From Shimia aestuarii (GTDB lineage: Bacteria; Pseudomonadota; Alphaproteobacteria; Rhodobacterales; Rhodobacteraceae): DNA of 64,000 nt. This document shows, piece after piece, positions 6,919 through 63,322 of this stretch. The notes beneath the pieces are model-generated. The model had not been told where the DNA came from. It saw only the letters and a program-made list of their open reading frames with translations, and made no database searches. The DNA lies in assembly GCF_022814865.1 (NCBI RefSeq), contig NZ_JAKVRD010000014.1, positions 1-64,000 of the forward strand, written 5' to 3'. Each line of letters opens with the position of its first letter. Position 1 is the stretch's first letter. Position numbers and translations under genes: made by a program.

Positions 6919-6963
6919 GGGTCTTTTCCTTGTCGTCTTGTTTGCGTTTGTGGTATTGCTGCC

Positions 6964-6981
6964 CCAGCCCTTCGGGGCTGG
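6964..6981 (-). terminator. UUCG-type hairpin between the 37-aa gene and the ParB-like gene
   Basis: Perfect 7-bp stem CCAGCCC-TTCG-GGGCTGG lying 11 bases after the stop of the 37-aa gene and 46 bases before the ParB-like start. It could end or attenuate readthrough. Confidence 0.5.
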
Positions 6982-6992
6982 AGCGAGGGGGC

Positions 6993-7106
6993 CTAGATGG
7001 CCCCGTGTTGTTTCAGGAAGGCGGTTCCGATCTTGGCTGAAAGGCCGCCTTTCCCAACCAGCGCCCATGCTTCTGCGATACGCGCCAGTTTCCAATCATT
7101 GCTCAT
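6993..7106 (-). CDS. Small ORF (37 aa) with a perfect ribosome-binding site
   Basis: Reads MSNDWKLARIAEAWALVGKG ... and ends FLKQHGAI. The AAAGGAGGTGAGTGC preceding the ATG is a near-ideal Shine-Dalgarno at good spacing, which makes translation likely despite the length. The protein is a single amphipathic helical unit without signal peptide. It sits between the DUF3768 gene and the ParB-like gene, all on the minus strand, with hairpins on both sides. Function unknown; possibly a small regulatory or DNA-binding accessory. Confidence 0.6.
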   Translation of the reverse strand: MSNDWKLARIAEAWALVGKGGLSAKIGTAFLKQHGAI

Positions 7107-20073: not shown

Positions 20074-21189
20074 CTACCCGCCTGGCTCTTCAAGCTTCAG
20101 CCAGTACCGTGTGTATCGGCGTTCGCCTGTGCGCGTGAGAGCTCCTATCTCGACAAGTTCCTGCAGATCCCTCGTCGCGGTCGCGCGTGATGTCCCCGTG
20201 ATCGCGATATAGTTTTCAGCGCTCAGACCACCCTTAAATCCGTTCGGCCCTTCGCGGAACATCCGCAGGGTCGCCTTGGCCTGCCTTGCATTCAGCGCCT
20301 CGCGATGCCGGTCGTAAAAATGTGCCTTGGCAATGAAGAAGCCTACACGATCCAGGGTGACTTGCTGCGCGTCCAGTACGGCCTCTGCAAACCATACGAG
20401 CCACGGTGTGACATCCAGCGTCTTTTGGTGGCGTTCAAGTTGATCGTAATAGTCCTTCCGCTTTCGCTCGATGGTGAAGGCCAGCGCGATCAGGCTGGGC
20501 TGCCCAATGTTCTGAGCTAGGGATTTTTCGGCCAAGGCCCGGCCCAGGCGACCATTCCCATCCTCAAACGGGTGGATGCTTTCGAAGTAGAGGTGGCTCA
20601 GGCCCGCGCGCGTCAAGGCTGGCACGGGTGCTTCGGCACCCGGCCCAGTCCGGTTGAACCAGTCGACATACCGGTCCATCTCATCCGGAACCCGTCCAGA
20701 TGGTGGGGCCTCAAAATGCACGACCGGACGATCAAGACGGCCCGAAACAATCTGCATGGCTTCCTCGTGCCGCCGATATGACCCGATGACCTCCAGACGC
20801 TTATCGAAGGCCAGAAGCATCTCATGCCACCGAAACAGGGTGCGATGCTCGAGCGGCTCCGCATAGGTCGAGTAGACGTCGACCGTCATCTCAGCCACTC
20901 CCTGCTCGCGAGGTTTGTTCGGATAGTTGCTTGGTTCCAATCCAAGGTGCCGACGGAGTGAGGATTGCACGCTGCGCCGGTCCAGCATCTCGCCCTCGAT
21001 GGCACTGGTCTTCATGGCTTCATCGCTCAGCAGATCGATGCGGAGTTGATCACGCTCGGACGGGTTCACATGGTGGACAGCCCCCAGAACCTCACCCGAC
21101 GACATTAGAAAGCGCTGTTCAAGCGGTGCCAGTGCTGTTTCGTCATACCGGAATTCCGGCCAGCCAGATATCTGCCAGTTCCATGCCAT
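20074..21189 (-). CDS. Fic-family AMP-transferase with N-terminal inhibitory motif
   Basis: A 371-residue protein. TSAIEG (~residues 61-66) matches the class II inhibitory motif (S/T)xxxE(G/N). The Fic core HPFEDGNGRLGR carries the catalytic His and phosphate-binding residues intact. The N-terminus resembles DUF4172 and the C-terminus is a winged helix (FKGGLSAENYIAITGTSRAT). Fic enzymes transfer AMP to hydroxyl groups on target proteins; these solitary forms are often self-regulated or toxin-like. Start ATG 21189. Not paired with a separate antitoxin. Confidence 0.9.
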   Translation of the reverse strand: MAWNWQISGWPEFRYDETALAPLEQRFLMSSGEVLGAVHHVNPSERDQLRIDLLSDEAMKTSAIEGEMLDRRSVQSSLRRHLGLEPSNYPNKPREQGVAEMTVDVYSTYAEPLEHRTLFRWHEMLLAFDKRLEVIGSYRRHEEAMQIVSGRLDRPVVHFEAPPSGRVPDEMDRYVDWFNRTGPGAEAPVPALTRAGLSHLYFESIHPFEDGNGRLGRALAEKSLAQNIGQPSLIALAFTIERKRKDYYDQLERHQKTLDVTPWLVWFAEAVLDAQQVTLDRVGFFIAKAHFYDRHREALNARQAKATLRMFREGPNGFKGGLSAENYIAITGTSRATATRDLQELVEIGALTRTGERRYTRYWLKLEEPGG

Positions 21190-21258: not shown

Positions 21259-21522
21259 TCACGGCTCCTCGGCGGCGCTCAGGCAAAGATACCCCTTTGC
21301 CACTTTTCTGCGTACATGTTTCTTGCAGGCTTTGACAGCGTCGCCTTCCGTTGCAAACGTAACCATCATGCTGCGGCCCCGTGTGCCGATGCGCCCCCAA
21401 CACCGGATGACAGATTGTTCTCCAAACAAAGTGGGCTGCACAGTCAATTGATAGAACCGCGCCATGTTCTGGGCGGGATCAATGCGTTCGAGATCGACAG
21501 GGTCGTGTGTGCCGCTTTGCAT
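21259..21522 (-). CDS. WGR-domain protein
   Basis: An 87-residue protein consisting of a WGR domain: RIDPAQNMARFYQLTVQPTL, VIRCWGRIGTRGR and GDAVKACKKHVRRKVAKGY contain the W-G-R core and its flanks. WGR domains bind nucleic acid ends in PARP-like and stand-alone bacterial proteins. The longer start at 21522 is kept because LERIDPAQNMARFY belongs to the family, though no clear ribosome-binding site precedes it. Confidence 0.8.
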   Translation of the reverse strand: MQSGTHDPVDLERIDPAQNMARFYQLTVQPTLFGEQSVIRCWGRIGTRGRSMMVTFATEGDAVKACKKHVRRKVAKGYLCLSAAEEP

Positions 21523-21571
21523 GGCCAGAGTCTGGCCTGTCGGGCTTCATCCGTCCAACGACAAATCTGAA

Positions 21572-24784: not shown

Positions 24785-25065
24785 GAAAAACCTAATTATT
24801 GGCTGCCACTCGACTTGCCACCCTGGGTACTTGATCATGCGTCATTCAGCTTGCTTGCCCAACTGGATTTGGGGGGCTGAACGCTGCGGAGCTGCTACCA
24901 CTCGTCGATGGCACAATACGAAATCAGGAGAATCGGTGGCGCAATCCTGCATTCAGATTGCAGGCTCCCACGCAGCACAAATGCTGGTATATTGGGCTGA
25001 AAATTCAAGTGCTTCACATCAAACGCGCGATGTTGAAGATTCAATGTTCTAAACGGAACCGATGC

Positions 25066-26334
25066 ATGAGCGATACAATCCACAACCCAGACCGTTTTAT
25101 GGTCGATCTTCGACAGATCCTGTCACAAGGGAGGAAGAGGATCGGCTTGCTCGTCGGCGCCGGTGCTCCGGTTTCAGTTCGAGTGAACGAGGAGGGCAAA
25201 CTTGACCAAAGTGGCAATCCCCTCATCCCCGATGTGGCAGGCATAACCAAAACGGTTCTTGACCAGCTCGAAGAAGCCGACCGCGCCTGTGTCGATACCC
25301 TCCTCCCAGAACTTGGACCGAACCCGAATATCGAAACTATTCTGACTCGCATCAGGCGTCTCGCACAGGCGATTGGGGCTGCCAAGGTTCATGGTCTTGC
25401 CGGACCTGAATACGAAAAGCTTGCCGAGCGAATTTGCGAGAAGATTGGCGCGATTGTCGCCGCCCCGCTGCCAGAAGAGCCAAATCCGTTCACCGAATTG
25501 GTGTCGTGGATCGGCGGCACGCACCGAGAGCATCCAATAGAGATATTTACACCCAACTACGATCTCCTGATCGAAGAGGCTTTCGAACGCGCGCGTCTTC
25601 CGTATTTCGACGGATTCACGGGAGCGCATCGCCCCTTTTTCGATCCGACAACCATTACTGACGATAAACTTCCGCCGCGTTGGTCTCGCGTCTGGAAAAT
25701 CCACGGGTCGCTGGGCTGGAACGTTATCGGTGATGGCATCGTCCGCACCGGCGAAAGGAAAGCAACAACTCTCATTTATCCTGACCATCTCAAATATGAT
25801 CACATCGCGAGACAGCCATATTCTGCGCTCTTTGAGCGTCTTCGGAAGTTCCTTACAACCCCCGACAGCCTACTCTTATGCACCGGATTTTCGTTTTTTG
25901 ATGCTCACATCACCTCGGTGATCGACGAAGCTTTGGCGGCGAACTCGCATACGGCGGTGCTGGCGTTCCAATACAAGACGCTCGCTGACGAACCATCTGC
26001 GGTGGAGGTGGCTCTGCGTCGCCCAAATCTGAGCGTATACGCAAGCGACGGTGCCGTAATCTTCGGTGTTTCCGGTCGCTGGCAGCCCGGGCAACCACCT
26101 ACGGAAGAGTGGGCTTCGATTCGTCGTACGTTTTGGAACGCGGATGGAGCGGGCGGCAAAGGGCAGTTCATTCTAGGCGACTTCGCCAAGCTTTCTCGCT
26201 TCTTTGCTAGTGCCCATGCCATCGAGTTGAGGCCAGCGAGCGAAAGTGCGGTAGCCGCGCCAGATGCAGTCGTCACAACACCAGCTGCTGCACCTGTCGA
26301 TGTGCCGGATGGGGGCGGTGATGCTCAGCCGTGA
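25066..26334 (+). CDS. SIR2-like NADase of a SIR2-HerA defence pair
   Basis: A 422-residue protein. Residues 26-38 (IGLLVGAGAPVSV) are the SIR2 nucleotide-binding loop, FTPNYD (161-166) and KIHGSLGW (211-218, His213) the usual SIR2 core with the catalytic His, and TGFSFFDAHI the late NAD pocket. In SIR2-HerA (Nezha-type) systems this protein degrades NAD+ or nucleic acid during phage infection and forms a large complex with HerA. Start ATG 25066. It overlaps the herA-like gene by 14 bases, and KTSC follows. Confidence 0.85.
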   Translation: MSDTIHNPDRFMVDLRQILSQGRKRIGLLVGAGAPVSVRVNEEGKLDQSGNPLIPDVAGITKTVLDQLEEADRACVDTLLPELGPNPNIETILTRIRRLAQAIGAAKVHGLAGPEYEKLAERICEKIGAIVAAPLPEEPNPFTELVSWIGGTHREHPIEIFTPNYDLLIEEAFERARLPYFDGFTGAHRPFFDPTTITDDKLPPRWSRVWKIHGSLGWNVIGDGIVRTGERKATTLIYPDHLKYDHIARQPYSALFERLRKFLTTPDSLLLCTGFSFFDAHITSVIDEALAANSHTAVLAFQYKTLADEPSAVEVALRRPNLSVYASDGAVIFGVSGRWQPGQPPTEEWASIRRTFWNADGAGGKGQFILGDFAKLSRFFASAHAIELRPASESAVAAPDAVVTTPAAAPVDVPDGGGDAQP

Positions 26335-28156
26335 TCCAACCTATCTGGGCACCGTAGCTTCCGTCTCCGGTTCGTCTGTAAGTGTTCACATCGCGCAGTC
26401 GGTAGCATCGGGCCTATCGGTGATTGAAGGGCGCACGTACAGGATCGGCCAAGTGGGTAGCTTCGTGCGCATCCCACAGGGTTATCAAGACCTCTTCGGC
26501 GTCGTATCGGAAGTTGGCGCAAAGGCTGCACCGACCTCAACAGACGAGGTCGATACCGATACCGGGCGCTCGATGCAGGTTCAGCTTGTGGGAGAGGCAA
26601 TTGGCGGCGTGTTTGAACGCGGTATCAGCCAGTATCCAAACATCGGTGACACCGTTCATATCACGACTGAAAGTAGCCTGGCGCGTATCTACGGGACCAA
26701 CGAATTTGGACATGTTGTCATCGGGTCTCTTTCCAGCGCTGAGAGCATTCCGGCCAGGGTTAGCCTAGATGAACTGATTACGCGGCATTCTGCGGTCTTG
26801 GGTTCCACGGGCTCAGGAAAGTCCACTACAATCGCGAGCCTGTTGCGTTCCATCACAAGCCCTCAACAGGACGAACAAAGCTACCCGAGCGCTCGGATTC
26901 TCATGCTTGATATCCATGGAGAATATTCAGGCGCTCTTGCCGATGTAGCGACCGTATTCTCTGTGGACCCACAACCTGGCGAAGAGAAGCTGTATATCCC
27001 TTATTGGGCGCTAGACTCCTCCGATCTCTTGGATTTTCTAACTGGCGGCGTGGAGGGTCCGCGCGAGACAGCTTTCACGGACAAAATCTTCGATCTGAAG
27101 GTCAAAGCGCATGAGGCAAATCCATTCCCGGGTGTAGAGAAAACCTCCATCACGGTGGATACGCCACTTCCATTCAGCCTAAAGAAGCTATGGCACGATC
27201 TCATTGATTTTGAGGTCGCGACATTCGAAGGCACTCAACGAGATCAATCAACAAAGCAGGATGATGGAGATGCTGATAATCTGATCCCTCCCAAGTACAA
27301 GCCCCACGCAATGGGTGCTCAGGGGCCGTTTCTTAATCAGCAAGCACACGGAATCCGCAGGCAGCTCAATTTGCTTCGCTCACGTTTGTTGGATCGACGC
27401 TACGATTTTCTTCTCCATCCAGGACCTTGGGAGCCTGCGCTTGATGGAACAATAGCGAACGATCTCGACATACTTCTTGCAGGTTGGCTGGGCGGAGAAA
27501 AGCCGATTACAATTCTCGATCTATCCGGCGTTCCAAGCGCGGTGCTTGAGCGGCTCGTAGGTTCGATTTTGAAGATCGTTTATGAGTCTCTGTACTGGAG
27601 CCGAGAGAAATCCGAGGGCGGAAAATGGCGACCACTGCTTCTGGTGATGGAAGAAGCGCATCGGTATCTCTCATCAGAAGGTGAGAAGCTTGCGCTCGAA
27701 ACGGCAAAGAAGATTGCTAAGGAAGGGCGCAAATACGGTGTCGGCTCGATGGTGATCAGCCAAAGACCATCCGAGGTCGATGAGACGATCCTTTCGCAGT
27801 GTGGGACTTACTTCGCCCTGCGCCTGTCCAATCCTACAGACCGCCAGCGTGTTCAGGGCACGTTACCGGACGGCTTGGTTTCCCTGCTTGATGTTCTCCC
27901 TGTGTTGAGAACAGGTGAAGCCATTGTGATGGGCGAGGCCGCTAAGCTCCCAATGCGCTGCCGAATTACCCTGCCTGATGAAAAGAACAGGCCGAGAAGT
28001 GCTGATCCCAAAGTCGCCAAGGAGTGGTCGCTTCCACGCCGCGCGGAAGGGTATGATCGGGTGATAGCCTCCTGGCGTGCCCAAAGGCCTCGTGCGACGG
28101 TCAATCCCGTGACAATCACGCGTGCACCAGTGACGGATGAATCAAAGGACGATTGA
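26321..28156 (+). CDS. HerA-like hexameric ATPase
   Basis: A 611-residue FtsK/HerA ATPase. An N-terminal HAS-barrel (~1-120) is followed by Walker A VLGSTGSGKSTTIASLL (~160-175), Walker B ARILMLDIHGEYSG, and late motifs LLVMEEAHRYLS and SMVISQRPSEVDE with SQCGTYFALRLSNP. HerA-type ATPases translocate DNA and, with SIR2, form a double-ring anti-phage complex. ATG 26321 is chosen: GGGGGCGGTG precedes it and it overlaps the SIR2 stop, giving translational coupling. The 20-residue upstream extension is unlikely. Confidence 0.85.
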   Translation: MLSRDPTYLGTVASVSGSSVSVHIAQSVASGLSVIEGRTYRIGQVGSFVRIPQGYQDLFGVVSEVGAKAAPTSTDEVDTDTGRSMQVQLVGEAIGGVFERGISQYPNIGDTVHITTESSLARIYGTNEFGHVVIGSLSSAESIPARVSLDELITRHSAVLGSTGSGKSTTIASLLRSITSPQQDEQSYPSARILMLDIHGEYSGALADVATVFSVDPQPGEEKLYIPYWALDSSDLLDFLTGGVEGPRETAFTDKIFDLKVKAHEANPFPGVEKTSITVDTPLPFSLKKLWHDLIDFEVATFEGTQRDQSTKQDDGDADNLIPPKYKPHAMGAQGPFLNQQAHGIRRQLNLLRSRLLDRRYDFLLHPGPWEPALDGTIANDLDILLAGWLGGEKPITILDLSGVPSAVLERLVGSILKIVYESLYWSREKSEGGKWRPLLLVMEEAHRYLSSEGEKLALETAKKIAKEGRKYGVGSMVISQRPSEVDETILSQCGTYFALRLSNPTDRQRVQGTLPDGLVSLLDVLPVLRTGEAIVMGEAAKLPMRCRITLPDEKNRPRSADPKVAKEWSLPRRAEGYDRVIASWRAQRPRATVNPVTITRAPVTDESKDD

Positions 28157-51516: not shown

Positions 51517-53382
51517 TCAGGTGCAGTCGGGCACCCATTTGTCGAGTTTGGCTTTCTGTTCCAGTGTCACCCCCATGAGCTTCTGGGTTGTGGGGTCGAT
51601 CACGAGCTTTTCCATCTTCTCGGCCTTTTCTGCCTTCTTGAGCTTGGCGAAACCGGCGACACGCTCGTCACGGGCATCGCAGTCGAGAAATTTGCAAAGC
51701 AGATCGACCAGATGGCCTGCAGACACCCGCGAGAAGAAATTCTCTGCCGTGGGCGTCCAGTGCTTGCGGATATCGGCCCCGGCCTCGTCCGCGATCAGGC
51801 CGAAGAACTCAGCGCTACCAGCCCGGTAGGGCAGGGTACGCGCAATGGCTTCTGTGATCTGGGCATTGCGGGCCTTCTTGCCGGCTTCGCGGAAAGCGGT
51901 GAAGGCGTCCGACAGGTCCTCCACGCGAGTGCCTTTCTGCCAGTATTCGCTGGCATCGATCCCGTGCTGAAGACGCGGCTCGCTGGAAAATCCGTTTCCC
52001 ACGCTTGGCGCGTTGGTCGGACGGTCCAGTCGAATGCCGAAAACGCTCTCGATACTGCCCGAGACTTCCGACAACCCGAACCCCAACAGGTCCAAAACCA
52101 GTTCTGGTTTGGCCAGAAGGGCGGCCTGCACCGATGCCAGCCGGATCGCCTGCATATCCGCTAACAGCTTTTGCGAGTAGGGAGATTTCGGGGTGTCAGA
52201 CTTGGTGGTCTGCGGCGCTTGCAGAACGCCAGCCTCAATGGCCGCTTTCTTGTCCTCCGGGCGAACCAGACCGGCGGTGATCTCAAGGTTTCCGGACCTG
52301 CTGACAAGGATGATGCAGCCCGCATGGGCTTTCTGGTCCTCGGAATAGTCACCGTCGAGAGTGGCCTGCAATTCCGAGAGCCGCGCTTCACCGTCCTCGT
52401 CCAGAACCCCGCCATTGGCCAATTCCGCCAATTCGTCATATTCCTCTGCTTCCGCCTCGGTCAGATCGCCCTCGATGGGGTAGAGGCGGGCCAGCTTCAT
52501 CTGATCCAGTTCGTAGTAGTTGAGCCAGGCCTCGGGCCGGGCCTCTGCCCATGCCCAGCCTTGAGCATCAATCAGATCGGCACGGGCTTCGTCCAACTTC
52601 TCGGCGAACAGGCGATCCAAAAGGGCAGGGGAAGCGAGGAAGACCTCGTCGGAGAAGAGATCGCGTGTGACCGTGCCGCCCTCAGCCTCATAGGCTTCGA
52701 TCCCAACGTACTTGGCGCGACGGTCCGTGGCCTTGATCGCATCGGGTTGCAGCGCGTTCTTGATGGCGCTCTCGGACACCGCCTGTCCCTTCACCTGATC
52801 CAGAAGACTCAAGGTCAGCGCCTCGTCATCGGAGAGGGTGAAGGCCTTGGCGGTGCCGAGACTGATCTCACCCGCCGAAAGCGCGTCGAGCACCGGCTCG
52901 GGCAGGCCCGCCAAAGCCAGCCGCTGATAGACGCGGGCTTCGGTGACTGCGAAGGCGAGGGCGACTTCCGGCACGGTGGCCCCGCGCGATTTCATGCGAC
53001 CGAAGGCGCGGATTTCATCCGCCGGGGTCATATCCACACGGGCGGCGTTTTCGGCGCTGGCCCAATCCTCGGCCTCGGCAGCGTCAGCAGCGAGTTTGAC
53101 AGGCACGGTGGTGAAGGCGTGGTCTTTGGACCGCTCGGCAATCATCTGAATGGCGCGAAGGCGGCACCCGCCCGCGACGATCCCAACCTTTCCATTCTCG
53201 TCCATGAGGCCTGCAAGATTGTGAATGAGGCCAAAGCGCTCGATGCTGTCGGCCAGCGTCTCGATGTGAGCTTCGGAAACAGCGTTGCGTGGATTAAGAT
53301 CAGAGACGGTGAGCATCTCCAAGGGGATTTGCAGGATCACGGCGCTGGCGGCATCGGTTTGGATGGGTTGTTGTTTCGTCAT
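51517..53382 (-). CDS. Large ParB/Spo0J-family protein (621 aa), copy 2
   Basis: Same architecture as the protein at 5095-6918: ParB box (VSDLNPRNAVSEAHIETLAD, GKVGIVAGGCRLRAI), HTH (VPEVALAFAVTEARVYQRLA), a long acidic helical C-terminal part and the lysine-rich FAKLKKAEKAEKMEKLV. In the ParB box the usual GGRRLRA reads GGCRLRA here (Arg to Cys). Sequence divergence shows that the two are old paralogues, not a recent copy. ATG 53382 follows AAAGGAC. Confidence 0.85.
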   Translation of the reverse strand: MTKQQPIQTDAASAVILQIPLEMLTVSDLNPRNAVSEAHIETLADSIERFGLIHNLAGLMDENGKVGIVAGGCRLRAIQMIAERSKDHAFTTVPVKLAADAAEAEDWASAENAARVDMTPADEIRAFGRMKSRGATVPEVALAFAVTEARVYQRLALAGLPEPVLDALSAGEISLGTAKAFTLSDDEALTLSLLDQVKGQAVSESAIKNALQPDAIKATDRRAKYVGIEAYEAEGGTVTRDLFSDEVFLASPALLDRLFAEKLDEARADLIDAQGWAWAEARPEAWLNYYELDQMKLARLYPIEGDLTEAEAEEYDELAELANGGVLDEDGEARLSELQATLDGDYSEDQKAHAGCIILVSRSGNLEITAGLVRPEDKKAAIEAGVLQAPQTTKSDTPKSPYSQKLLADMQAIRLASVQAALLAKPELVLDLLGFGLSEVSGSIESVFGIRLDRPTNAPSVGNGFSSEPRLQHGIDASEYWQKGTRVEDLSDAFTAFREAGKKARNAQITEAIARTLPYRAGSAEFFGLIADEAGADIRKHWTPTAENFFSRVSAGHLVDLLCKFLDCDARDERVAGFAKLKKAEKAEKMEKLVIDPTTQKLMGVTLEQKAKLDKWVPDCT

Positions 53383-54530: not shown

Positions 54531-55739
54531 ATGGAACACTTTTCAGCGGTACAAAGCATCATTCGCGCAGGCCTTAACGGCGATGCCAAAGCAGTGGACA
54601 AGCAAGTTCGCCGCCTACAGAGCCGCCTCCGGAAGGCCGGCTCGGAGAAGGAAGTGGAAGTCCTGGAACGCCTCCTGCACGCCGCCTCTGAAACAAAAGA
54701 GCTGGCACCGAGCCGAGTAGAAGTTTCGAGATCGCTTGTCACTGGGGAAGAACTGTCTCGCGACGCTAACCCGCCGATAGATCGTGAGACCGGCGCCGCT
54801 CTTTGCGAGATTGCTTTCCCGAGTGATGAGATCGTTACACCGGTTCACGGTGCGACTGTGGGTGAAGCCGTCGAGGGTATGATCGAGGAATGGCAGAGTG
54901 CGGCCCTGTTGAGTTCGATGGATGTTGAGCCAACAAAAAGCGTTTTGATTTACGGTCCTCCGGGGTCAGGAAAAACACTGACGGCTCACTACGTCGCAAA
55001 TCGGCTCGGCTTGCCTCTGTTAACTGCACGCATCGACGGGCTCATTTCGTCGTTTCTTGGCACAACTGCTCGCAACATTGCTGGGTTGTTCTCCTTTGCG
55101 AACCGCTATCGTTGCGTGCTGTTGCTGGACGAGTTTGATGCTCTGGCCAAGCTCAGAGACGACCCTCAGGAGATCGGAGAGATCAAGCGTGTGGTGAATA
55201 CGCTCCTGCAGAACCTGGATGAGCGGCGCAGGCATGGGATTACCATTGCGATCACAAATCACGACAGGCTTCTCGACCCAGCTGTTTGGCGGCGGTTCGA
55301 AAGCCAGATCCACATCGATGCTCCGCACTCCGATGCCCGCGAGCATATGATTGCCCGCTTCCTCAAGCCCGTCCCTGCATCTCCAGCAACAATCAAGCTG
55401 TTTGCTTACTGTCTGGCGGGATTGTCGGGCGCAGATCTGGAGCGCGTCTGCACGGCTGTAAAGCGCACTCTCGCACTGAACAAAAGCCCGCAGAACGCGG
55501 CCTCAGTGTTTGACGCCCTTGTTGGAGTTTTGTCGAAGGCTCCGCATCTGGAAAACCAAGCAGCGTGGATGCTGACGGAAGATCTCGAGGCATTTGTTAG
55601 CCTTGCGGCGAATGATCATGACCTTCGGCTCAAGCAAACGGAAATCGGAGAAGCCACAGGGTTCGGTCAGTCCAAAGTGAGTGAGATCAAGCAAAAGAAG
55701 CGCCATCTCGAAGTAGCGGAGCGGTTCGTTGCCCAATAA
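54531..55739 (+). CDS. ietA: IetA-like AAA+ ATPase
   Basis: A 402-residue AAA+ protein. Walker A GPPGSGKT (142-149), Walker B VLLLDEFDAL (196-205), sensor-1 AITNHD, arginine finger VWRRFE, and a C-terminal HTH-like segment (KQTEIGEATGFGQSKVSEIK). It is followed, with an 11-base overlap, by a subtilisin-like protease. The AAA+/S8-protease pair matches IetA-IetS, first described as a plasmid-exclusion locus in Agrobacterium and later shown to give phage defence. The pairing and architecture support the call; orthology was not tested. Confidence 0.8.
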   Translation: MEHFSAVQSIIRAGLNGDAKAVDKQVRRLQSRLRKAGSEKEVEVLERLLHAASETKELAPSRVEVSRSLVTGEELSRDANPPIDRETGAALCEIAFPSDEIVTPVHGATVGEAVEGMIEEWQSAALLSSMDVEPTKSVLIYGPPGSGKTLTAHYVANRLGLPLLTARIDGLISSFLGTTARNIAGLFSFANRYRCVLLLDEFDALAKLRDDPQEIGEIKRVVNTLLQNLDERRRHGITIAITNHDRLLDPAVWRRFESQIHIDAPHSDAREHMIARFLKPVPASPATIKLFAYCLAGLSGADLERVCTAVKRTLALNKSPQNAASVFDALVGVLSKAPHLENQAAWMLTEDLEAFVSLAANDHDLRLKQTEIGEATGFGQSKVSEIKQKKRHLEVAERFVAQ

Positions 55740-58263
55740 TCCAGTCCAGATCATCCTGAACGACCAAGACTTCCATCAGGCACCCGAACCGGGGCAGCCA
55801 CCTAGGAATAAGGATTTCTTCGACGGTGCTGACGCTGCCTTCGAACGCCACAAGACCGCGCTACTGGAATCGCTGAAACAGGCCAAATTGGAGATTTCCG
55901 AACAAGAATTTGGCCCAGCGGCATATCTGAAGGTGCAAATGCGCACCGAAGCACTCGCGAAATCCTATCGCCCAGTGTCATACCTCTTTAAACCGGCGCA
56001 GTTTCCCTGCGTTGGGGCGGATGCTGTTGGCACCTTGTACTTCCGCGCGCCGGAGTTTTATCTGGACGCACTGATCAGGCGGGTGAACGAAGCCGAGATC
56101 GTCGTAGAAACCAAGTTTCGGCAATCGGATGGCGAGAGCTACAAGGCTCCATCAGCCGCGCGTGCTGAAGTCGGTGCGATCGACGCGATTGAGATCGCGC
56201 CTTCAGTGGAAAAGCGGCAATTCTCTGTGGCGGAAGCGGTTCGTCTACTTAGCGACCCGGCATCGGTTTCAGGTTATCAGATCGAGCTCTTTGAGACGCC
56301 TGAGAGACGTGAAATCACAGACGATGTGACCGGTCGTCGAGCTCTCTTGGCAAGCCTCGAACAACTCCTCCTAGGTCTGGGACAGGGGGCCCGCACGTTC
56401 ATTGCCACCGAGATCGGCCGCACGCCCGTCCTCGAGCTGCAACTAACACGCAGTGACACTCGTGCCATCGTTGACAGTGGGATCGGTCTGAGTTCAGGGG
56501 AAGCAACTCCAGCAGTAAGATCGGCAGAAGCTGACCTGAATCCTGATCGGCATGAAGCCGCTCTTAGCTCGCTGCAAGCGCACCCTCTGGTTCGTGCAAT
56601 CCGTCCTCCGATCCAGCTCACACTGGCAGATGATCCGGCTTGGACAAGTACTATGGAGGTCGAAGACCAAGGGTTGGATATCTCAATTCCTGTCCCGCAG
56701 CCCAATGCAACGTATCCCAGATTGGGCGTCATCGACTCCGGCATTTCGGATATCTTGGGCGATTGGATTGTAGATCGTTTCGACTACCTCGACCTTTCGG
56801 ATTGTGATCCTCAACACGGAACGGCCGTTGCCGGGATCGCAGCAATGGGGCAGGGCATTAATGCACCGAACCTGGCCCCCGAACCCGATGGGTGTTTGGT
56901 GTACGATGCTGCACTGTTCCCGAAGGGCAACTTCATGCGCGAGTACCCGAAGGGGTTTTCAGATTTCCTTGAAGAGCTCGAGCAAGCGGTGATCGAGGCC
57001 AAGGATGCTCATGGTATTCGGATCTTTAATCTGTCTATCAATGCAATTTCGGACGTCGAAGCGAGCCGGTACAGCATCTATGCCGCTAGATTGGATCAGA
57101 TCGCTGATACGCACGGCGTCCTGTTTATCAACTCAGTTGGCAACTTGCCCAAGTCCCAGGCGCGTGCGCCATGGCAGGCAAAACCAAGCGTCGTTAAGAC
57201 TTATTTCGCCAACCGAACCTCGCCGGATACACTGCAGAAGCCTTCGGAAAGCGTGCGCACCTTGTCAGTGGGCGCTCTGAACCCACCTGGGACGGCACAT
57301 ATTGCAGACGCGCCGACTACCTACACCCGGCGCGGCCCAGGTCTACAAGTTGGGGTGAAACCAGACGTCGCTGCATACGGTGGTGCCGGCGAGACAAATC
57401 CAGCGAAAACCACGGGAATGTCTTCGCTTTCCGTCACAGGCCACAAGACAAAAGTCGTCGGCACGAGCTTCGCTGCTCCACTGATAGCCCGAAGTGCTGC
57501 GGAATTGGATACCGCAACTGCTGGCGGACTGACGCCTGAGGCGATCAAGGCCATGATGGTGCATAGTGCACAGATGCCAGATCCGCTAACAAAACGCGGT
57601 TTGAAAGATATTGCTCGTCAGTTCGCAGGGTATGGCCGCCCCTGCGGCGCCATGGAGATGCTCGAAACCGACGATCACCAAGTCACCCTGGTTTTCCAGA
57701 GCCGCCTTACAATCGGGGAGCGAAAACCAGCAATCCTGCGCTTTCCTTTTAGTTGGCCCCAGGCCCTAGTCAGCGGAAGTAGTTGCTCCGGCAAAGTGCG
57801 CATGACCTTAGCATACGCACCGCCATTGGACCCGGCGTTCGGTGCAGAGTTCGTTCGGGTAAATCTCGAAGCGTCGCTTAAACAGCGCCTGATAGAGACC
57901 AAAAAAGACGGCGGTGTCCGCTTCGCTAATCGCGCCAAACCGAAATACCTGCCGAACGCACAAGGCCTTGCCGTACCTGAGAAGGCGTTGATCAGTCATG
58001 GATTAAAATGGTGGCCACTAAAGCAGTACGAGATGACGCTGAACGAAGTCGGAGAGACAACCGATTGGCGGTTGGAAGTTACGAGCTTGGTTCGGGCCGA
58101 AACGACCTTTCCTGCTGACGGCGTACCCTTCGCACTGGTCATGACAATCGAAGACCCAGATGGCACGCAGCCCGTGTTCAGCCAAGTTCAGCAGCAACTT
58201 CAATCCAGCCGGGCAAACGCTCAAGCCCTGCGTAGTGTGTTTAGACTGCGCCCAAGAGCATAA
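55729..58263 (+). CDS. ietS: IetS-like subtilisin-family serine protease
   Basis: An 844-residue S8 protease. Catalytic triad: Asp336 (LGVIDSGI), His363 (QHGTAVAGI), Ser580 (VGTSFAAPL), with Asn472 (NSVGN) for the oxyanion. The 330-residue N-terminal part has no signal peptide, and a beta-rich C-terminal ~220 residues follow, so it works in the cytoplasm. TTG at 55729 is the likely start (GGAG nine bases upstream) and lies inside the ietA end, giving coupling. Partner of the AAA+ protein, which probably controls or feeds the protease. Confidence 0.85.
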   Translation: MPNNPVQIILNDQDFHQAPEPGQPPRNKDFFDGADAAFERHKTALLESLKQAKLEISEQEFGPAAYLKVQMRTEALAKSYRPVSYLFKPAQFPCVGADAVGTLYFRAPEFYLDALIRRVNEAEIVVETKFRQSDGESYKAPSAARAEVGAIDAIEIAPSVEKRQFSVAEAVRLLSDPASVSGYQIELFETPERREITDDVTGRRALLASLEQLLLGLGQGARTFIATEIGRTPVLELQLTRSDTRAIVDSGIGLSSGEATPAVRSAEADLNPDRHEAALSSLQAHPLVRAIRPPIQLTLADDPAWTSTMEVEDQGLDISIPVPQPNATYPRLGVIDSGISDILGDWIVDRFDYLDLSDCDPQHGTAVAGIAAMGQGINAPNLAPEPDGCLVYDAALFPKGNFMREYPKGFSDFLEELEQAVIEAKDAHGIRIFNLSINAISDVEASRYSIYAARLDQIADTHGVLFINSVGNLPKSQARAPWQAKPSVVKTYFANRTSPDTLQKPSESVRTLSVGALNPPGTAHIADAPTTYTRRGPGLQVGVKPDVAAYGGAGETNPAKTTGMSSLSVTGHKTKVVGTSFAAPLIARSAAELDTATAGGLTPEAIKAMMVHSAQMPDPLTKRGLKDIARQFAGYGRPCGAMEMLETDDHQVTLVFQSRLTIGERKPAILRFPFSWPQALVSGSSCSGKVRMTLAYAPPLDPAFGAEFVRVNLEASLKQRLIETKKDGGVRFANRAKPKYLPNAQGLAVPEKALISHGLKWWPLKQYEMTLNEVGETTDWRLEVTSLVRAETTFPADGVPFALVMTIEDPDGTQPVFSQVQQQLQSSRANAQALRSVFRLRPRA

Positions 58264-58269
58264 CTTTTC

Positions 58270-59766
58270 ATGACAACGACCGACGGAACCCACATTTCTA
58301 TTACCATACCAAACATCTCCTCGCTCGGTGATGAGGACATGCCTGCAATCGCACCTTTTCGCGACGGCCGGTGGAGTGCTCAAACCAAACAGCTATTGGC
58401 CACGTTTAAAACGCGGAGACTGGATCTTAACCGGGGCTGGGCTTCAACCTCGACCGAATGGAGCTGCCCTTGCTGTAAGAGGCACAAACGCCAGATCGTC
58501 AGGTTGACGCCAGGAGGGGTTTTGCTCTGCCATCTGGAACTTCACCATGATCATCTGGATGATTTGGTAAAGAAGTTGTTCGAGGAGATCCTCTCCTGTT
58601 GCGATAATCCGGAGATCCGTGTGCAGATCAGTCGTGCAGAAGGGGCACTCAGACCACTTGTGGAGCGTTTTGAATCCGCCCAGATTTGCGCGGATTGCAA
58701 TCTTGCGGATGGGCGTGTGAAGCGTGAGCTTTGGGATGAAATCGCGCCGCATTTCACATTCACGCCGTCGGAAATCGCCGACTTCATCACTGTGAGCGAC
58801 AACCGCGTGCACGAAGTAGATTTCGAACGCGCCCGGGCCATTTGGGAGAAAGAGAAGGAAGGCTTAGCTGACCGCGTCGACTTTGCTAGGCGGATGGCAG
58901 CGAGAATTGCAAAAGGCCGCCACCATCGTGAGGTCGCGCCGGGTCAAAAAATGCAAGGCCAGCCGCAGGCCAGAGACATCCTGTTTCGGCTTTGCCAAGA
59001 AGAACTACCAGACATTCACAGTCTGCACCTTGGCGCTGCAATAGAGACCCGATCTGTGGCCCGCGATGGTGTGGGCGGAAACCAAAGGCCTTCTAAACGG
59101 AAGAATGTAAAGCCGCCAACAGATGCCGAATACTCGATGCTCGATGCGGAGCAGAGCGCGAATAGCAAACACTGGCGCAATGCAGGAGATACCTGGAAAT
59201 GCCAGTGCTGCGGGCGCACCAAAAGAGATATTTGCCGACGCTCTAATCGCGGGAAATGGACAGCAAGGATTCACCGTTTTGAAGGGTTCGACATTGAGGT
59301 TGACGCAGAGCAACTTTGGCGGCGTCGACTTGATGGAGCGGGGGACATCGTCATTTCCGAACCGAAATACGAGCTGATTTGCCAGGACTGCCGAGAAATT
59401 GTCGCCAAACAAAGACAGCGACGAGCGGACCTGGACGCCCGGGCACTAACACTGGAAAATCTGCGAGAGTTGGCAACTCCGGCCACGGCAAACGTTGCTC
59501 ACGACGTGAACTTCGAGAGTGTCGAAGAGTTGATCACCAACAACTCATCGCTTCTAGAAGCGATTGCCGAATTTGAAGACCACCAGCGTCGGGCCACAGA
59601 TGCTCGCATCAAACAGATCAGGCTAAGGAAAGCTGGCTGCACCGCTTCAGAGGCGCGCGACCTTATCGGCTACGAGATAGCGAAGGCGCGGGATTGGGAG
59701 CTGGAAGAGGGTGACGACCATGCGGATTGGCTGCTGGCAGAAGCAGCCCGCCTTGGCCCAAACTAG
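58270..59766 (+). CDS. Zinc-finger/HNH-like protein attached to the IetAS pair
   Basis: A 498-residue protein starting 6 bases after ietS. Residues 66-144 read CPCC (Cys66, Cys69) ... LCHLELHHDHLDD (His92, His93, Asp94, His95) ... ICADCN (Cys140, Cys143, Asn144), the layout of a Zn-type HNH nuclease. A second, degenerate unit lies near residues 308-385 (WKCQCCGRTK ... ICQDCREI), lacking the HHD. The remaining parts are helical. IetAS has been described as a two-gene system, so this third gene may be an added nuclease effector or a separate system. Confidence 0.6.
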   Translation: MTTTDGTHISITIPNISSLGDEDMPAIAPFRDGRWSAQTKQLLATFKTRRLDLNRGWASTSTEWSCPCCKRHKRQIVRLTPGGVLLCHLELHHDHLDDLVKKLFEEILSCCDNPEIRVQISRAEGALRPLVERFESAQICADCNLADGRVKRELWDEIAPHFTFTPSEIADFITVSDNRVHEVDFERARAIWEKEKEGLADRVDFARRMAARIAKGRHHREVAPGQKMQGQPQARDILFRLCQEELPDIHSLHLGAAIETRSVARDGVGGNQRPSKRKNVKPPTDAEYSMLDAEQSANSKHWRNAGDTWKCQCCGRTKRDICRRSNRGKWTARIHRFEGFDIEVDAEQLWRRRLDGAGDIVISEPKYELICQDCREIVAKQRQRRADLDARALTLENLRELATPATANVAHDVNFESVEELITNNSSLLEAIAEFEDHQRRATDARIKQIRLRKAGCTASEARDLIGYEIAKARDWELEEGDDHADWLLAEAARLGPN

Positions 59767-59783
59767 GGACACCAGGTGGTCTA

Positions 59784-60101
59784 ATGAGTAACCGGAAAAA
59801 TGAAACGACCCAAATTCTCCAACAACATCGTTCGCTGGCCATCCTACGATTCCTGAGCCGGTCTCCAGAGTATCGGTCTAACGAGGATGTGCTATTGGAC
59901 TGGCTACGCCACCTCGCATTGACATGCACGCGCGCAGAATTGCGTACACTTGCATCGTCTCTCGAAGGAGACGGGCATCTGCGATCGGAAATAGTAGAGG
60001 AACTGCATATCCTAAAGTTGGCGGAGAAAGGGCTGGAGACAGCTGAAGGCAAGACGATTTCAGAGGGAGTAAAACGACCAGAGCCTGAGTGCCCTTATTG
60101 A
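59784..60101 (+). CDS. Small winged-helix protein, phage-Mu-like type
   Basis: A 105-residue protein: SLAILRFLSRSPEYRSNEDV, LLDWLRHLALTCTRAELRTL, LKLAEKGLETAEGKT, ISEGVKRPEPE. This resembles the small winged-helix proteins of Mu-like phages (VpaChn25_0724/gp26 type; I-L-R-x-L ... G-Y-x-x-N-E ... L-T-E-x-G-x-x-x-A-x-G ... V-K-R-P). 17 bases after the HNH-like gene, same direction; likely the last gene of the ietA operon. Possibly a regulator. Confidence 0.55.
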   Translation: MSNRKNETTQILQQHRSLAILRFLSRSPEYRSNEDVLLDWLRHLALTCTRAELRTLASSLEGDGHLRSEIVEELHILKLAEKGLETAEGKTISEGVKRPEPECPY

Positions 60102-60364: not shown

Positions 60365-63322
60365 ATGACAAACTCTGGATCTCGATGGCTGCGATGGGAA
60401 CCGCATATCCACGCACCCGGAACTGTCCTCAACGACCAGTTCAAGGGAGCGGATAGCAGAGAACAATATCTCTCGAAGATTGAGGCTTCGAGTCCGCAAA
60501 TCCATGCGCTCGGGGTCACAGACTATTATTTGCTGGACACTTACCAAGAAGTTCGCGCGGCAAAATACCAAGATGGTCGGCTTTCTGGTGTGGATCTGAT
60601 ATTCCCAAACGTCGAACTTCGACTGGCATTTGGGACAGTCAAAGGCAATTGGGTCAATTGCCATCTGCTCATCAATCCAGAGGATCCAGATCATGTGCAG
60701 GCAACACAACGCTTTCTGGCGCAACTGACATTTGATTTTTCTGGTGACCGATTCACCTGTACGCCCGATGATCTTACGCGGCTCGGTTCAAAGATTGACG
60801 GCAAGCTGACCGAACGAGCTGCGCTCGCCCGTGGGGCAACACAGTTCAAGGTCAGTTTTGAGCAATTGGTGGAAGTCTATCGGGCTGTTGATTGGGCAAA
60901 ACAGAACATCCTCATCGCCGTTGCAGGCAGTGGCAATGACGGCACCTCCGGCATGCGGGGAGAATCCGAAGGCGCCCAACGCCAAGAAGTCGAAAAGTTT
61001 GCCCATATCGTTTTTTCGAGTAGCCCAAGTCAGCGTGACTACTGGTTGGGGAGGAAGACCTCTGAGAGCGATATTCGGCAGCGCTATGGTGCACTCAAGC
61101 CATGCCTTCATGGCAGCGATGCTCATGATACGGAGAAAGTCGGTGTTCCGGACGGCGATCGTTTCTCCTGGGTTAAGGGTGGTGCTCATTTTGACACTCT
61201 CAGGCAAGCGGTCATTGATCCTAGTGGGCGTGCCTATGTGGGAGCAGCGCCACCCATGCGCGCAACACCTTCGCAGGTAATTTCGCGTGCGACCATTGTG
61301 GGTGCCGACTGGGCGGCCTCGCCACAGATTGATCTCAACCCAGGTTTAGTCGCAATCATCGGAGCACGTGGTTCTGGAAAGACTGCCCTTGCCGATGCAA
61401 TTGCTGCCGGTTGCGATGCGGCTTCTCAGAGCTTAAGCACGGCATCCTTCCTAATCCGTGCCGGCGATCTGTTGTCGGGCGTTAGCGTGACGATCGATTG
61501 GGGTAGTGGCGATCCGTCGGAACGCGATCTCCTCGATTACGAGTATGATCCCGAACTTGAGGGACGGTTTCCCAGAGCACTCTACCTTTCGCAGAAATTC
61601 GTCGAAGAGCTCTGTTCAGCGGACGGTATGACGGATGCACTTCTGGCAGAGATAGAGCGCGTCATTTTCGAGGCTCATCCAGAAAAAGATGGAACGTTCC
61701 GGTTCGATCAACTGCTCGAACTCCGTGCAACCCGGCATCGTTTGGCGCGAGGACGCGCGGAGGAAGCCATCGTTTCTCTTTCGGATCAGATCGGTGCGGA
61801 GCGAGAGAAGCGGTCAAGAATTGAGGGCCTCAAGCAGCAGCTCAACCAGAAAGAACGTCTGGTTAAGGGATTGGAAACTGATCGGGACAAGCTCATCGTG
61901 AAAGGCAGCGAAGCTCGGGCAAAGAGGCTCACTGTTATTGCCAATGCAGCCGAGAAGGTCCGCTCATATGTCCGGTACTTTGTAAATCAGGAAACCTCGC
62001 TGTTGTCGCTACAGGACGAAGTCAAAGCGTTCCGAGAAAACAAGGCACCAGAGACCTTGCGTGCGACGAAGGCTAGTTTCGTTGCGACCCGTCTCGAAGA
62101 AAGCGACTGGGATGACTTTCTTCTTGAATATCACGGCGATGTCGACGCAGCACTTAAGGCAAAACTCGCCACGGCACAGCAAAACGCCAATGACTGGCGG
62201 GGAACCATCCCAGATCCGATTGCGGATATCAATCAGCCCTACCTTTCTGAAGAGGCGGATCCGGAGAAAACGTCTCTTGCCGTACTGGAAGCCGAAGCTA
62301 CGCGTCTTCAAAAGCTCATCAACATTGACACCGAGACCGCTCAAAAGTTTGCCGGACTTGTAAAACGGATTGCTGGTGAAAATACGCAGATTGAGAACCT
62401 ACGAACTTCATTGGCCGACTGTGAGGGGGCCGCGGAGCGAATGCGAACGCTCAGCCAAAGCCGACAGCAGGCGTATGTAAATGTGTTCGCTGCCATCATC
62501 GCCGAAGAGCAAGTTTTGCGCGATCTCTATCAGCCGTTGGTCGACCGGCTCCAAGCTGCACAAGGCACGCTGCAGAAGCTCTCATTCTCGGCCACTCGAA
62601 AGGCCGATGTCCGCACGTGGGCTTCTGACGGAGAAGGATTGTTCGATCTGAGACGGGCAGGGGATTTCAAGGGCAAAGGCTCGATCGAGCAATGGGCGAA
62701 CACTCACATCAGAGCAGCTTGGGAGACCGGAGATGTCGCATCAATTGATAAGGCACTCCAACATTTCACAGAGGAATGGCAAGACGAACTAATGGCCGTC
62801 GCAAATGTGCCGGCTGATGACGCGGCGGCGTATCGAAACTGGTTGATGCGTTTTGCAAAATGGCTGTTCAGCACGAACCACATCCAGATCGAATATGGTA
62901 TCGACTATGAAGGGACAGACATCACCAAATTGTCGCCTGGCACGCGCGGCATCGTGCTTTTGCTACTCTATCTCGCACTCGACGAAGCCGACCAACGGCC
63001 TCTCATCATTGATCAACCGGAAGAGAACTTAGACCCCAAATCGATTTTTGATGAACTCGTTAGCTTGTTCGTCGCCGCAAAGGCAAAACGGCAAGTCATC
63101 ATGGTCACTCACAATGCCAATCTCGTGATAAACACTGATGCGGACCAGATCATCGTCGCGACTGCCGGTCCACACAGCCCGGGCGAGTTGCCCCCAATAA
63201 CCTACCAATCCGGCGGCCTCGAAGATGCAGAGATGCGAAAACATGTCTGCGATATCTTGGAAGGCGGTGAAGAGGCATTCAAAGAGCGCGCACGACGTCT
63301 CCGGGTGCGACTTGAACGATAA
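60365..63322 (+). CDS. TrlF-like protein: PHP domain fused to SMC-type ATPase
   Basis: A 985-residue protein. The PHP domain (1-~300) shows WEPHIHAPGT (His14, His16), GVTDYY, FPNVELRLAF and the late HGSDAHD. The ATPase has Walker A IIGARGSGKTALADAI (~340), a coiled-coil arm (~450-720, REKRSRIEGLKQQLNQKERL), the ABC signature LSPGTRGIVLLLLYLAL and Walker B PLIIDQPEENLD, then the D-loop/H-switch MVTHNANLV. It matches TrlF-type ATPases found in defence islands; PHP domains cleave phosphate esters. Start ATG 60365. Confidence 0.85.
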   Translation: MTNSGSRWLRWEPHIHAPGTVLNDQFKGADSREQYLSKIEASSPQIHALGVTDYYLLDTYQEVRAAKYQDGRLSGVDLIFPNVELRLAFGTVKGNWVNCHLLINPEDPDHVQATQRFLAQLTFDFSGDRFTCTPDDLTRLGSKIDGKLTERAALARGATQFKVSFEQLVEVYRAVDWAKQNILIAVAGSGNDGTSGMRGESEGAQRQEVEKFAHIVFSSSPSQRDYWLGRKTSESDIRQRYGALKPCLHGSDAHDTEKVGVPDGDRFSWVKGGAHFDTLRQAVIDPSGRAYVGAAPPMRATPSQVISRATIVGADWAASPQIDLNPGLVAIIGARGSGKTALADAIAAGCDAASQSLSTASFLIRAGDLLSGVSVTIDWGSGDPSERDLLDYEYDPELEGRFPRALYLSQKFVEELCSADGMTDALLAEIERVIFEAHPEKDGTFRFDQLLELRATRHRLARGRAEEAIVSLSDQIGAEREKRSRIEGLKQQLNQKERLVKGLETDRDKLIVKGSEARAKRLTVIANAAEKVRSYVRYFVNQETSLLSLQDEVKAFRENKAPETLRATKASFVATRLEESDWDDFLLEYHGDVDAALKAKLATAQQNANDWRGTIPDPIADINQPYLSEEADPEKTSLAVLEAEATRLQKLINIDTETAQKFAGLVKRIAGENTQIENLRTSLADCEGAAERMRTLSQSRQQAYVNVFAAIIAEEQVLRDLYQPLVDRLQAAQGTLQKLSFSATRKADVRTWASDGEGLFDLRRAGDFKGKGSIEQWANTHIRAAWETGDVASIDKALQHFTEEWQDELMAVANVPADDAAAYRNWLMRFAKWLFSTNHIQIEYGIDYEGTDITKLSPGTRGIVLLLLYLALDEADQRPLIIDQPEENLDPKSIFDELVSLFVAAKAKRQVIMVTHNANLVINTDADQIIVATAGPHSPGELPPITYQSGGLEDAEMRKHVCDILEGGEEAFKERARRLRVRLER

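Follow-up and report, generated by a model that had tools for sequence, protein, structure and literature searches.

p3, a putative tandem endonuclease-VII-like protein encoded beside IetAS and several other defence genes

A 64,000-nucleotide stretch of Shimia aestuarii DNA (hereafter the window) carries four closely spaced genes between positions 54531 and 60101. The first two encode the ATPase and the serine protease of an IetAS pair, the third, here called p3, encodes a protein of 498 residues and the fourth, wh, a small protein of a phage family. The original prediction had taken the four genes as a variant of the IetAS exclusion/defence module in which the protease pathway would release or control a nuclease. 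We think it probable, on balance, that the p3 protein is a member of an uncatalogued family with tandem endonuclease-VII-like units and that it is a separate defence nuclease that moves among defence genes. As p3 is found beside several unrelated defence genes, it has the look of a travelling defence gene rather than of a fixed part of IetAS, and a fixed four-gene IetAS system is mostly not supported.

The p3 gene (58270-59766, + strand) gave a protein for which no significant family match was found in NCBIfam, PADLOC (2023 library), Pfam or PHROGs; the best Pfam match (E 0.076) was to an unrelated family and that in PHROGs (E 0.011) covered only 23 residues. Relatives were found at 42 loci of the genome collection and in 10 plasmid records, 4 of which covered at least 80% of the query, and partial matches in two Acinetobacter records came from the plasmid search. 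A Klebsiella phage record flagged as unverified also contains a relative (L123:6977-8197, 27.9% over 405 aa), and among viral contigs three stretches fitted a search pattern, of which none was confirmed. We aligned the window protein with those of 28 of the 42 genome loci, near-copies and incomplete or frame-broken loci being left out. Three motifs were seen, W64-x-C66-P-x-C69, H92-H93-D94-H95 and C140-x-x-C143-N144, in which W64, C66, C69, H93, D94, H95, C140, C143 and N144 were invariant in all 29 sequences and H92 was kept in 28, the remaining sequence having R. We take H92 to H95 and N144 to be the metal and general-base residues by analogy to HNH enzymes. Profile-profile alignment of the N-terminal part with the C-terminal part gave an E value of 2.3e-17 over 132 columns, and therefore p3 is a tandem duplicate (unit 1 at about residues 52-200, unit 2 at about 298-440) with a degenerate second unit that lacks the HHDH and N residues of the first. 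Both the CxxC...HHDH...CxxCN core and the decayed second copy noticed in the original prediction were thus recovered. The differences between p3 and a Ruegeria copy of 84.5% identity, by codon position (55/32/146 at first, second and third positions in 497 codons), show that p3 is a coding gene whose protein is under selection.

The similarity to endonuclease VII lies in unit 1. When unit 1 was compared with an alignment of 10 phage endonuclease VII sequences by hhalign, the probability was 94% and E values were 9.6e-8 to 1.1e-7, with the CPxC, HDH and CxxCN...K elements in register. The score was 47.1 as compared with 14.0 for the reversed profile and a maximum of 21.6 in 200 column shuffles; a further 200 shuffles in which the Cys columns stayed fixed reached at most 27.9, such that none of the 400 shuffles was as good as the real alignment. 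Masking of HHDH lowered the score to 35.2 and masking of both HHDH and N144 lowered it to 26.3. Unit 2 matched the endonuclease VII profile with a probability of 2%, as expected of a degenerate copy. The HNH-like guess of the original prediction is thereby upheld and sharpened to endonuclease-VII-like. Unit 1 shares with phage endonuclease VII (T4 gp49, PF02945) the layout of CxxC, (D/H)HxH and CxxCN...K as well as the profile similarity, whereas the spacing from HHDH to the second CxxC is 44 residues in p3 and 14 in T4, the p3 unit has a longer C-terminal extension and a second degenerate copy, and Pfam gives no match. As the Pfam HNH models and a generic HNH profile both fail with p3, we call unit 1 endonuclease-VII-like, a designation based on profile similarity, and do not claim membership of PF02945. 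Against solved structures p3 alone matched nothing, and the p3 profile gave 17 weak matches (best E 0.048), one of them to endonuclease VII over the stretch with CxxCN (E 1.1). A search for the endonuclease VII family in 60 related genomes gave nothing, nor did its controls give a signal. If p3 is a defence nuclease, one live and one dead endonuclease-VII-like unit in the same protein would be an unusual arrangement.

A protein with these motifs might also be a zinc-binding DNA- or RNA-binding protein that is not a nuclease, the HNH-like motif being structural. Weak matches to rubredoxin (best E 9.8e-5) were obtained with 16 of the 29 p3 sequences and were read as a resemblance to zinc knuckles, no HNH model was reached and the motif is lost in the second unit, all of which would fit such a protein. 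However, the invariance of H93, D94, H95, C140, C143 and N144, together with the near-invariance of H92, and the loss of endonuclease VII score upon masking of HHDH and N144 argue for catalytic-type residues, and we regard a purely structural motif as very unlikely.

The defence setting of p3 was seen in its neighbours. We scanned 139 of the 152 nearest-neighbour proteins listed, leaving out near-duplicates. Among the first 25 of the 212 PADLOC families matched, PD-T7-1 was found in five proteins, IetS in four and HamC2 in two; among the first 25 of the 77 Pfam families there were ScpB-like (five), DUF1403 (four), NADAR-DarT1 (three) and DarT (two). A DarT-like gene adjoins p3 in Mesorhizobium, the three NADAR matches being to the DarT1-associated antitoxin. 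GajA adjoins p3 in divergent orientation on a plasmid of Rhizobium sp. 11515TR and is the second gene from p3, downstream and convergent, in the Klebsiella phage record (where the gene between the two looks UvrD-like by reading). When 10 neighbours were scanned singly against PADLOC, two were GajA, two at L015 matched HamC2 and, weakly, SduA respectively, one at L037 matched TniQ and five (at L013, L016, L020, L036 and L043) were unmatched. PD-T7-1-like company, assigned by BLAST clusters of which one member was scanned singly, was placed on 8 of the 38 rows of a p3 tree and requires six changes there, as compared with a mean of 7.5 for shuffled labels (44 of 500 shuffles needed as few). PD-T7-1 is about as frequent beside p3 as IetAS, and IetAS is not singled out among the defence neighbours. 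Since both IetS (8 of 385) and PD-T7-1 (3 of 240) have low base rates among genomes sampled from the class, p3 lies near defence genes more than these rates alone suggest. Elsewhere PD-T7-1 and Gabija recur near p3, whereas the five proteins scanned at the locus in the window included neither, and p3 itself has no PADLOC match.

IetAS could instead be a plasmid-stability toxin-antitoxin system, with p3 and wh as cargo having no part in defence; p3 might then be, for example, a nuclease of recombination or of a mobile element. IetAS is described as the toxin-antitoxin pair responsible for stability and incompatibility of pTiC58 in the title of Yamamoto 2009, as cited in PMC8765062, and a figure legend of PMC5006074 gives IetS as toxin and IetA as antitoxin. 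The window encodes a ParB-domain protein (Pfam and NCBIfam) and, by reading of open reading frame (ORF) translations, ParA- and ParB-like genes, of which homologs occur at several p3 loci (BLAST clusters 8, 9 and 14). Moreover, branched DNA, including Holliday junctions, is cleaved by T4 endonuclease VII according to a database record. Against such cargo stand the repeated occurrence of several distinct defence families beside p3 and the six changes that PD-T7-1-like company requires on the p3 tree, and hence we consider a non-defensive passenger unlikely.

Among the genomes sampled, IetS was found in 8 of 385 from the class and in 13 of 390 from the order, and together these make 20 distinct genomes. 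Two of these 20, the window's genome and one other, contained p3, and in the other 18 it was not found. IetS was matched at E 1e-20 in 20 plasmid records, of which one also had a p3 match, and in the other 19 p3 was not found; a Sphingobium plasmid that has p3 next to genes annotated as S8 peptidase and ATPase fell under that limit and so is uncounted. Considered from the side of p3, IetA or IetS lay in the flanks of 7 of 47 p3 places (the window, the 42 genome loci and four further plasmid stretches, 5 of the 10 plasmid matches having been fetched), and neither was present in the fetched flanks of the other 40. Genes of the fetched loci were called by a simple script. At five of the seven places p3 and IetAS are directly adjacent, in four arrangements: p3 is behind ietS and codirectional in the window and in Ruegeria, before ietA and codirectional in Bradyrhizobium, divergent in Sphingobium and convergent in Novosphingobium B1. 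Thus p3 was not found beside most of the sampled IetAS pairs, which is largely the outcome that the original prediction had named as speaking against a four-gene variant, and release or control of p3 by the protease is not supported by anything found here. In the passages of open-licence PMC text that name both IetAS and HNH, the HNH protein is PtuB of Septu or Cas9 and not a third IetAS gene.

The main support for a link between p3 and IetAS is a Ruegeria locus that repeats the ietA-ietS-p3-wh gene order, and this support consists of one pair of related loci. The p3 and wh proteins of the two loci are 84.5% and 63.8% identical, whereas the identities are 41.6% for IetA and 26.0% for IetS (partial alignments). 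The best PADLOC profile for Ruegeria IetS is PDLC02198 and that for the window protein is PDLC02199, and by these comparisons the Ruegeria IetAS belongs to another clade. In blastn a block of 85% identity (58313-59976) spans most of the p3 gene together with part of wh, whereas ietS lies outside it. Because p3 and wh are similar although the IetAS pairs are divergent, and because the block stops short of ietS, p3-wh behaves as a unit that can become attached to different IetAS pairs, or else IetAS has been exchanged around it. One could go further and regard p3-wh as a swappable DNA-cutting cassette, in which different IetAS clades, serving as a sensor and protease switch, gain the same effector behind ietS, although we find this quite unlikely.

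A related possibility is that p3-wh is the effector cassette of a four-gene IetAS variant in which IetA restrains proteolysis by IetS, and this proteolysis would activate or release p3 in the course of infection. The gaps of 6 and 17 bases before p3 and wh and the retention of gene order with another IetAS clade in Ruegeria are consistent with such coupling, and a passage of PMC11811056 names ietAS among defence systems said to act in association. If p3 were wired to IetAS in this way, a protease-based pair would have gained a DNA-cutting arm. Coupling is difficult to reconcile, however, with the 18 of 20 IetS genomes in which p3 was not found, with the 40 of 47 p3 places at which the fetched flanks lack IetAS, with orientations that vary from codirectional (on either the 3' or the 5' side) to divergent and convergent, and with the presence of wh in the window and Ruegeria only among the fetched p3 loci. 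We therefore judge it rather unlikely. It is probable that p3 works independently of IetAS, although cooperation of separate systems would also be possible.

Several observations weigh against p3 as an independent, travelling nuclease, and two of them favour a tie to IetAS. On the p3 tree of 38 rows IetAS company requires at least four changes, all forced by well supported branches (gains are indistinguishable from losses on this tree), as compared with a mean of 6.6 for shuffled labels. As only 4 of 500 shuffles needed as few as four changes, IetAS company is partly clustered, tighter than in 496 of the 500 shuffles, and this clustering points to a degree of association with IetAS, in the Roseobacteraceae branch at least. 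Likewise, in both p3 carriers among the 390 genomes of the order ietS immediately precedes p3 (2/2, as compared with 13/390 genomes with IetS), which also speaks for some tie in that branch, although the two carriers are related (n=2). Flanks were fetched up to about 9 kb and many were shorter, being ended by contig ends, and hence the 7 of 47 p3 places with IetAS is a lower bound. The p3 gene is also scarce, with 2 carriers in a sample of 385 genomes, 2 in one of 390 and 1 in one of 100 (in the 385 and 390 samples the best three or four first-look candidates per genome were scored). Six of the eight singly scanned neighbours other than the two GajA proteins had no PADLOC match or matched only TniQ, and the excess of defence genes near p3 was measured against base rates only, which take no account of the general clustering of defence genes. 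Lastly, in a search of the 29 p3 sequences against Pfam at E 1 neither HNH nor Endonuclease_7 was among the 17 families listed, and a generic HNH profile of five sequences failed to match p3. The latter is a weak negative because the motif filter used to build the profile kept only 5 of the 30 HNH loci fetched.

If p3 is nevertheless the separate nuclease that we favour, the following scheme would account for its distribution. The family would move among defence genes, mostly within the Alphaproteobacteria and at several loci on plasmids. Unit 1, which has the metal-binding and catalytic-type residues, would cut or nick incoming phage or plasmid DNA, whereas unit 2, having lost these residues, would act as a binding or dimer-forming half. 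The wh protein may bind DNA, regulate p3 or be cargo. IetAS would retain its own role in plasmid stability or phage exclusion independently of p3. The family would then be a thinly scattered and unnamed one that has no model in the PADLOC 2023 library. What keeps the locus of interest is this family of tandem endonuclease-VII-like proteins, uncatalogued and found among defence genes, together with the presence of the p3-wh block behind two IetAS clades.

The IetAS pair itself is well assigned by the PADLOC definition. The ietA gene (54531-55739, +) encodes a protein of 402 residues that matches PADLOC IetA (PDLC02195, E 2.6e-152, residues 1-392) and Pfam AAA (E 2.5e-28). The ietS gene (55729-58263, +) has a TTG start and encodes 844 residues that match PADLOC IetS (PDLC02199, E 3.2e-290, residues 1-843) and Pfam Peptidase_S8 (E 1.5e-28). 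The protease triad is intact, with D336 in VIDSG, H363 in HGT and S580 in GTSFAAP, and there are no internal stops; the AAA+ ATPase and S8 protease with full triad described in the original prediction are indeed IetAS. As in known IetAS (IteA/IteS) pairs, both genes are of full length, overlap by 11 bases and encode the catalytic triad. The window pair differs in being followed by p3 and wh and in falling under the cut-offs of the NCBIfam equivalogs, IetA scoring 287.5 bits with the IteA model NF042959 (cut-off 510) and IetS 326.3 bits with the IteS model NF042956 (cut-off 900). By these scores the window pair is a divergent branch that lies outside the narrower NCBIfam equivalogs. IetAS is listed among phage defences in PMC10286901.

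The wh gene (59784-60101, +) encodes 105 residues from an ATG start (the ORF list begins at an earlier TTG, to give 124 residues). The protein matches the NCBIfam VpaChn25_0724 family (NF050184, E 5.4e-20) with 71.4 bits, which passes the curated cut-off of 65, and phrog_436 (E 1.3e-16). Relatives were found in 32 phage records, 24 of which are of Pseudomonas phages, and some are annotated as DNA-binding domain proteins, such that wh is a putative DNA-binding protein. By profile the protein, earlier labelled a winged helix, is assigned to the VpaChn25_0724 family. Unlike its phage relatives wh stands alone behind p3, and the scan of five proteins at the locus identified no further phage gene. 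Between the window and Ruegeria copies the differences by codon position are 20/24/49 in 105 codons. According to the abstract of PMC7756092 the Vibrio VpaChn25_0724 gene is linked with growth and with the integrity of the membrane; a role in defence is not mentioned there. Only the fetched p3 loci were searched for wh. We considered wh as a constant third gene of IetAS and rejected it; two other loci of the order with a close IetAS (L072 and L073, about 60% identical to that of the window) carry instead a WGR gene of about 105 residues some 20 bases after ietS (L072:6453-6779 and L073:5809-6114), which is unrelated to wh by BLAST. The Pfam WGR assignment was made on the L072 copy. In L073 relaxase and type IV coupling protein genes (L073:1352-5622) adjoin ietAS, and homologs are present in L075 and L078 (BLAST clusters); these genes fit a conjugative setting.

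The four genes lie on the same strand with gaps of -11, 6 and 17 bases, just as the original prediction had located them. Given this close spacing, a shared transcript is plausible, and p3 and wh are probably transcribed together with ietAS. A scan of the locus found one promoter-like site where 3.9 were expected and 13 terminator-like sites where 10.7 were expected. A neighbouring gene outside the unit (60365-63322, +), 263 bases downstream of wh, encodes a TrlF-family AAA-like ATPase (NF045780, E 2.8e-204, 681.7 bits with a cut-off of 350), which also gave weaker partial matches to Ppl and a PHP-associated match at chance level.

The contig bears plasmid-type genes. Two large ParB-like proteins are encoded in the window, one of 666 residues (5095-7095, -) and another of 621 residues (51517-53382, -); homologs of the latter recur near p3 in other genomes (BLAST cluster 9). 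On the same contig, positions 24958-28156 (+) look like a SIR2-HerA defence pair, in which a SIR2-like protein (PF13289, E 1.1e-16) overlaps a HerA-type helicase (NF042944, E 5.4e-74, below the family cut-off). A Fic protein with a DUF4172 domain (20074-21189, -) adjoins a small gene (about 21280-21525, -) that resembles the WGR protein found after ietS in the two other genomes.

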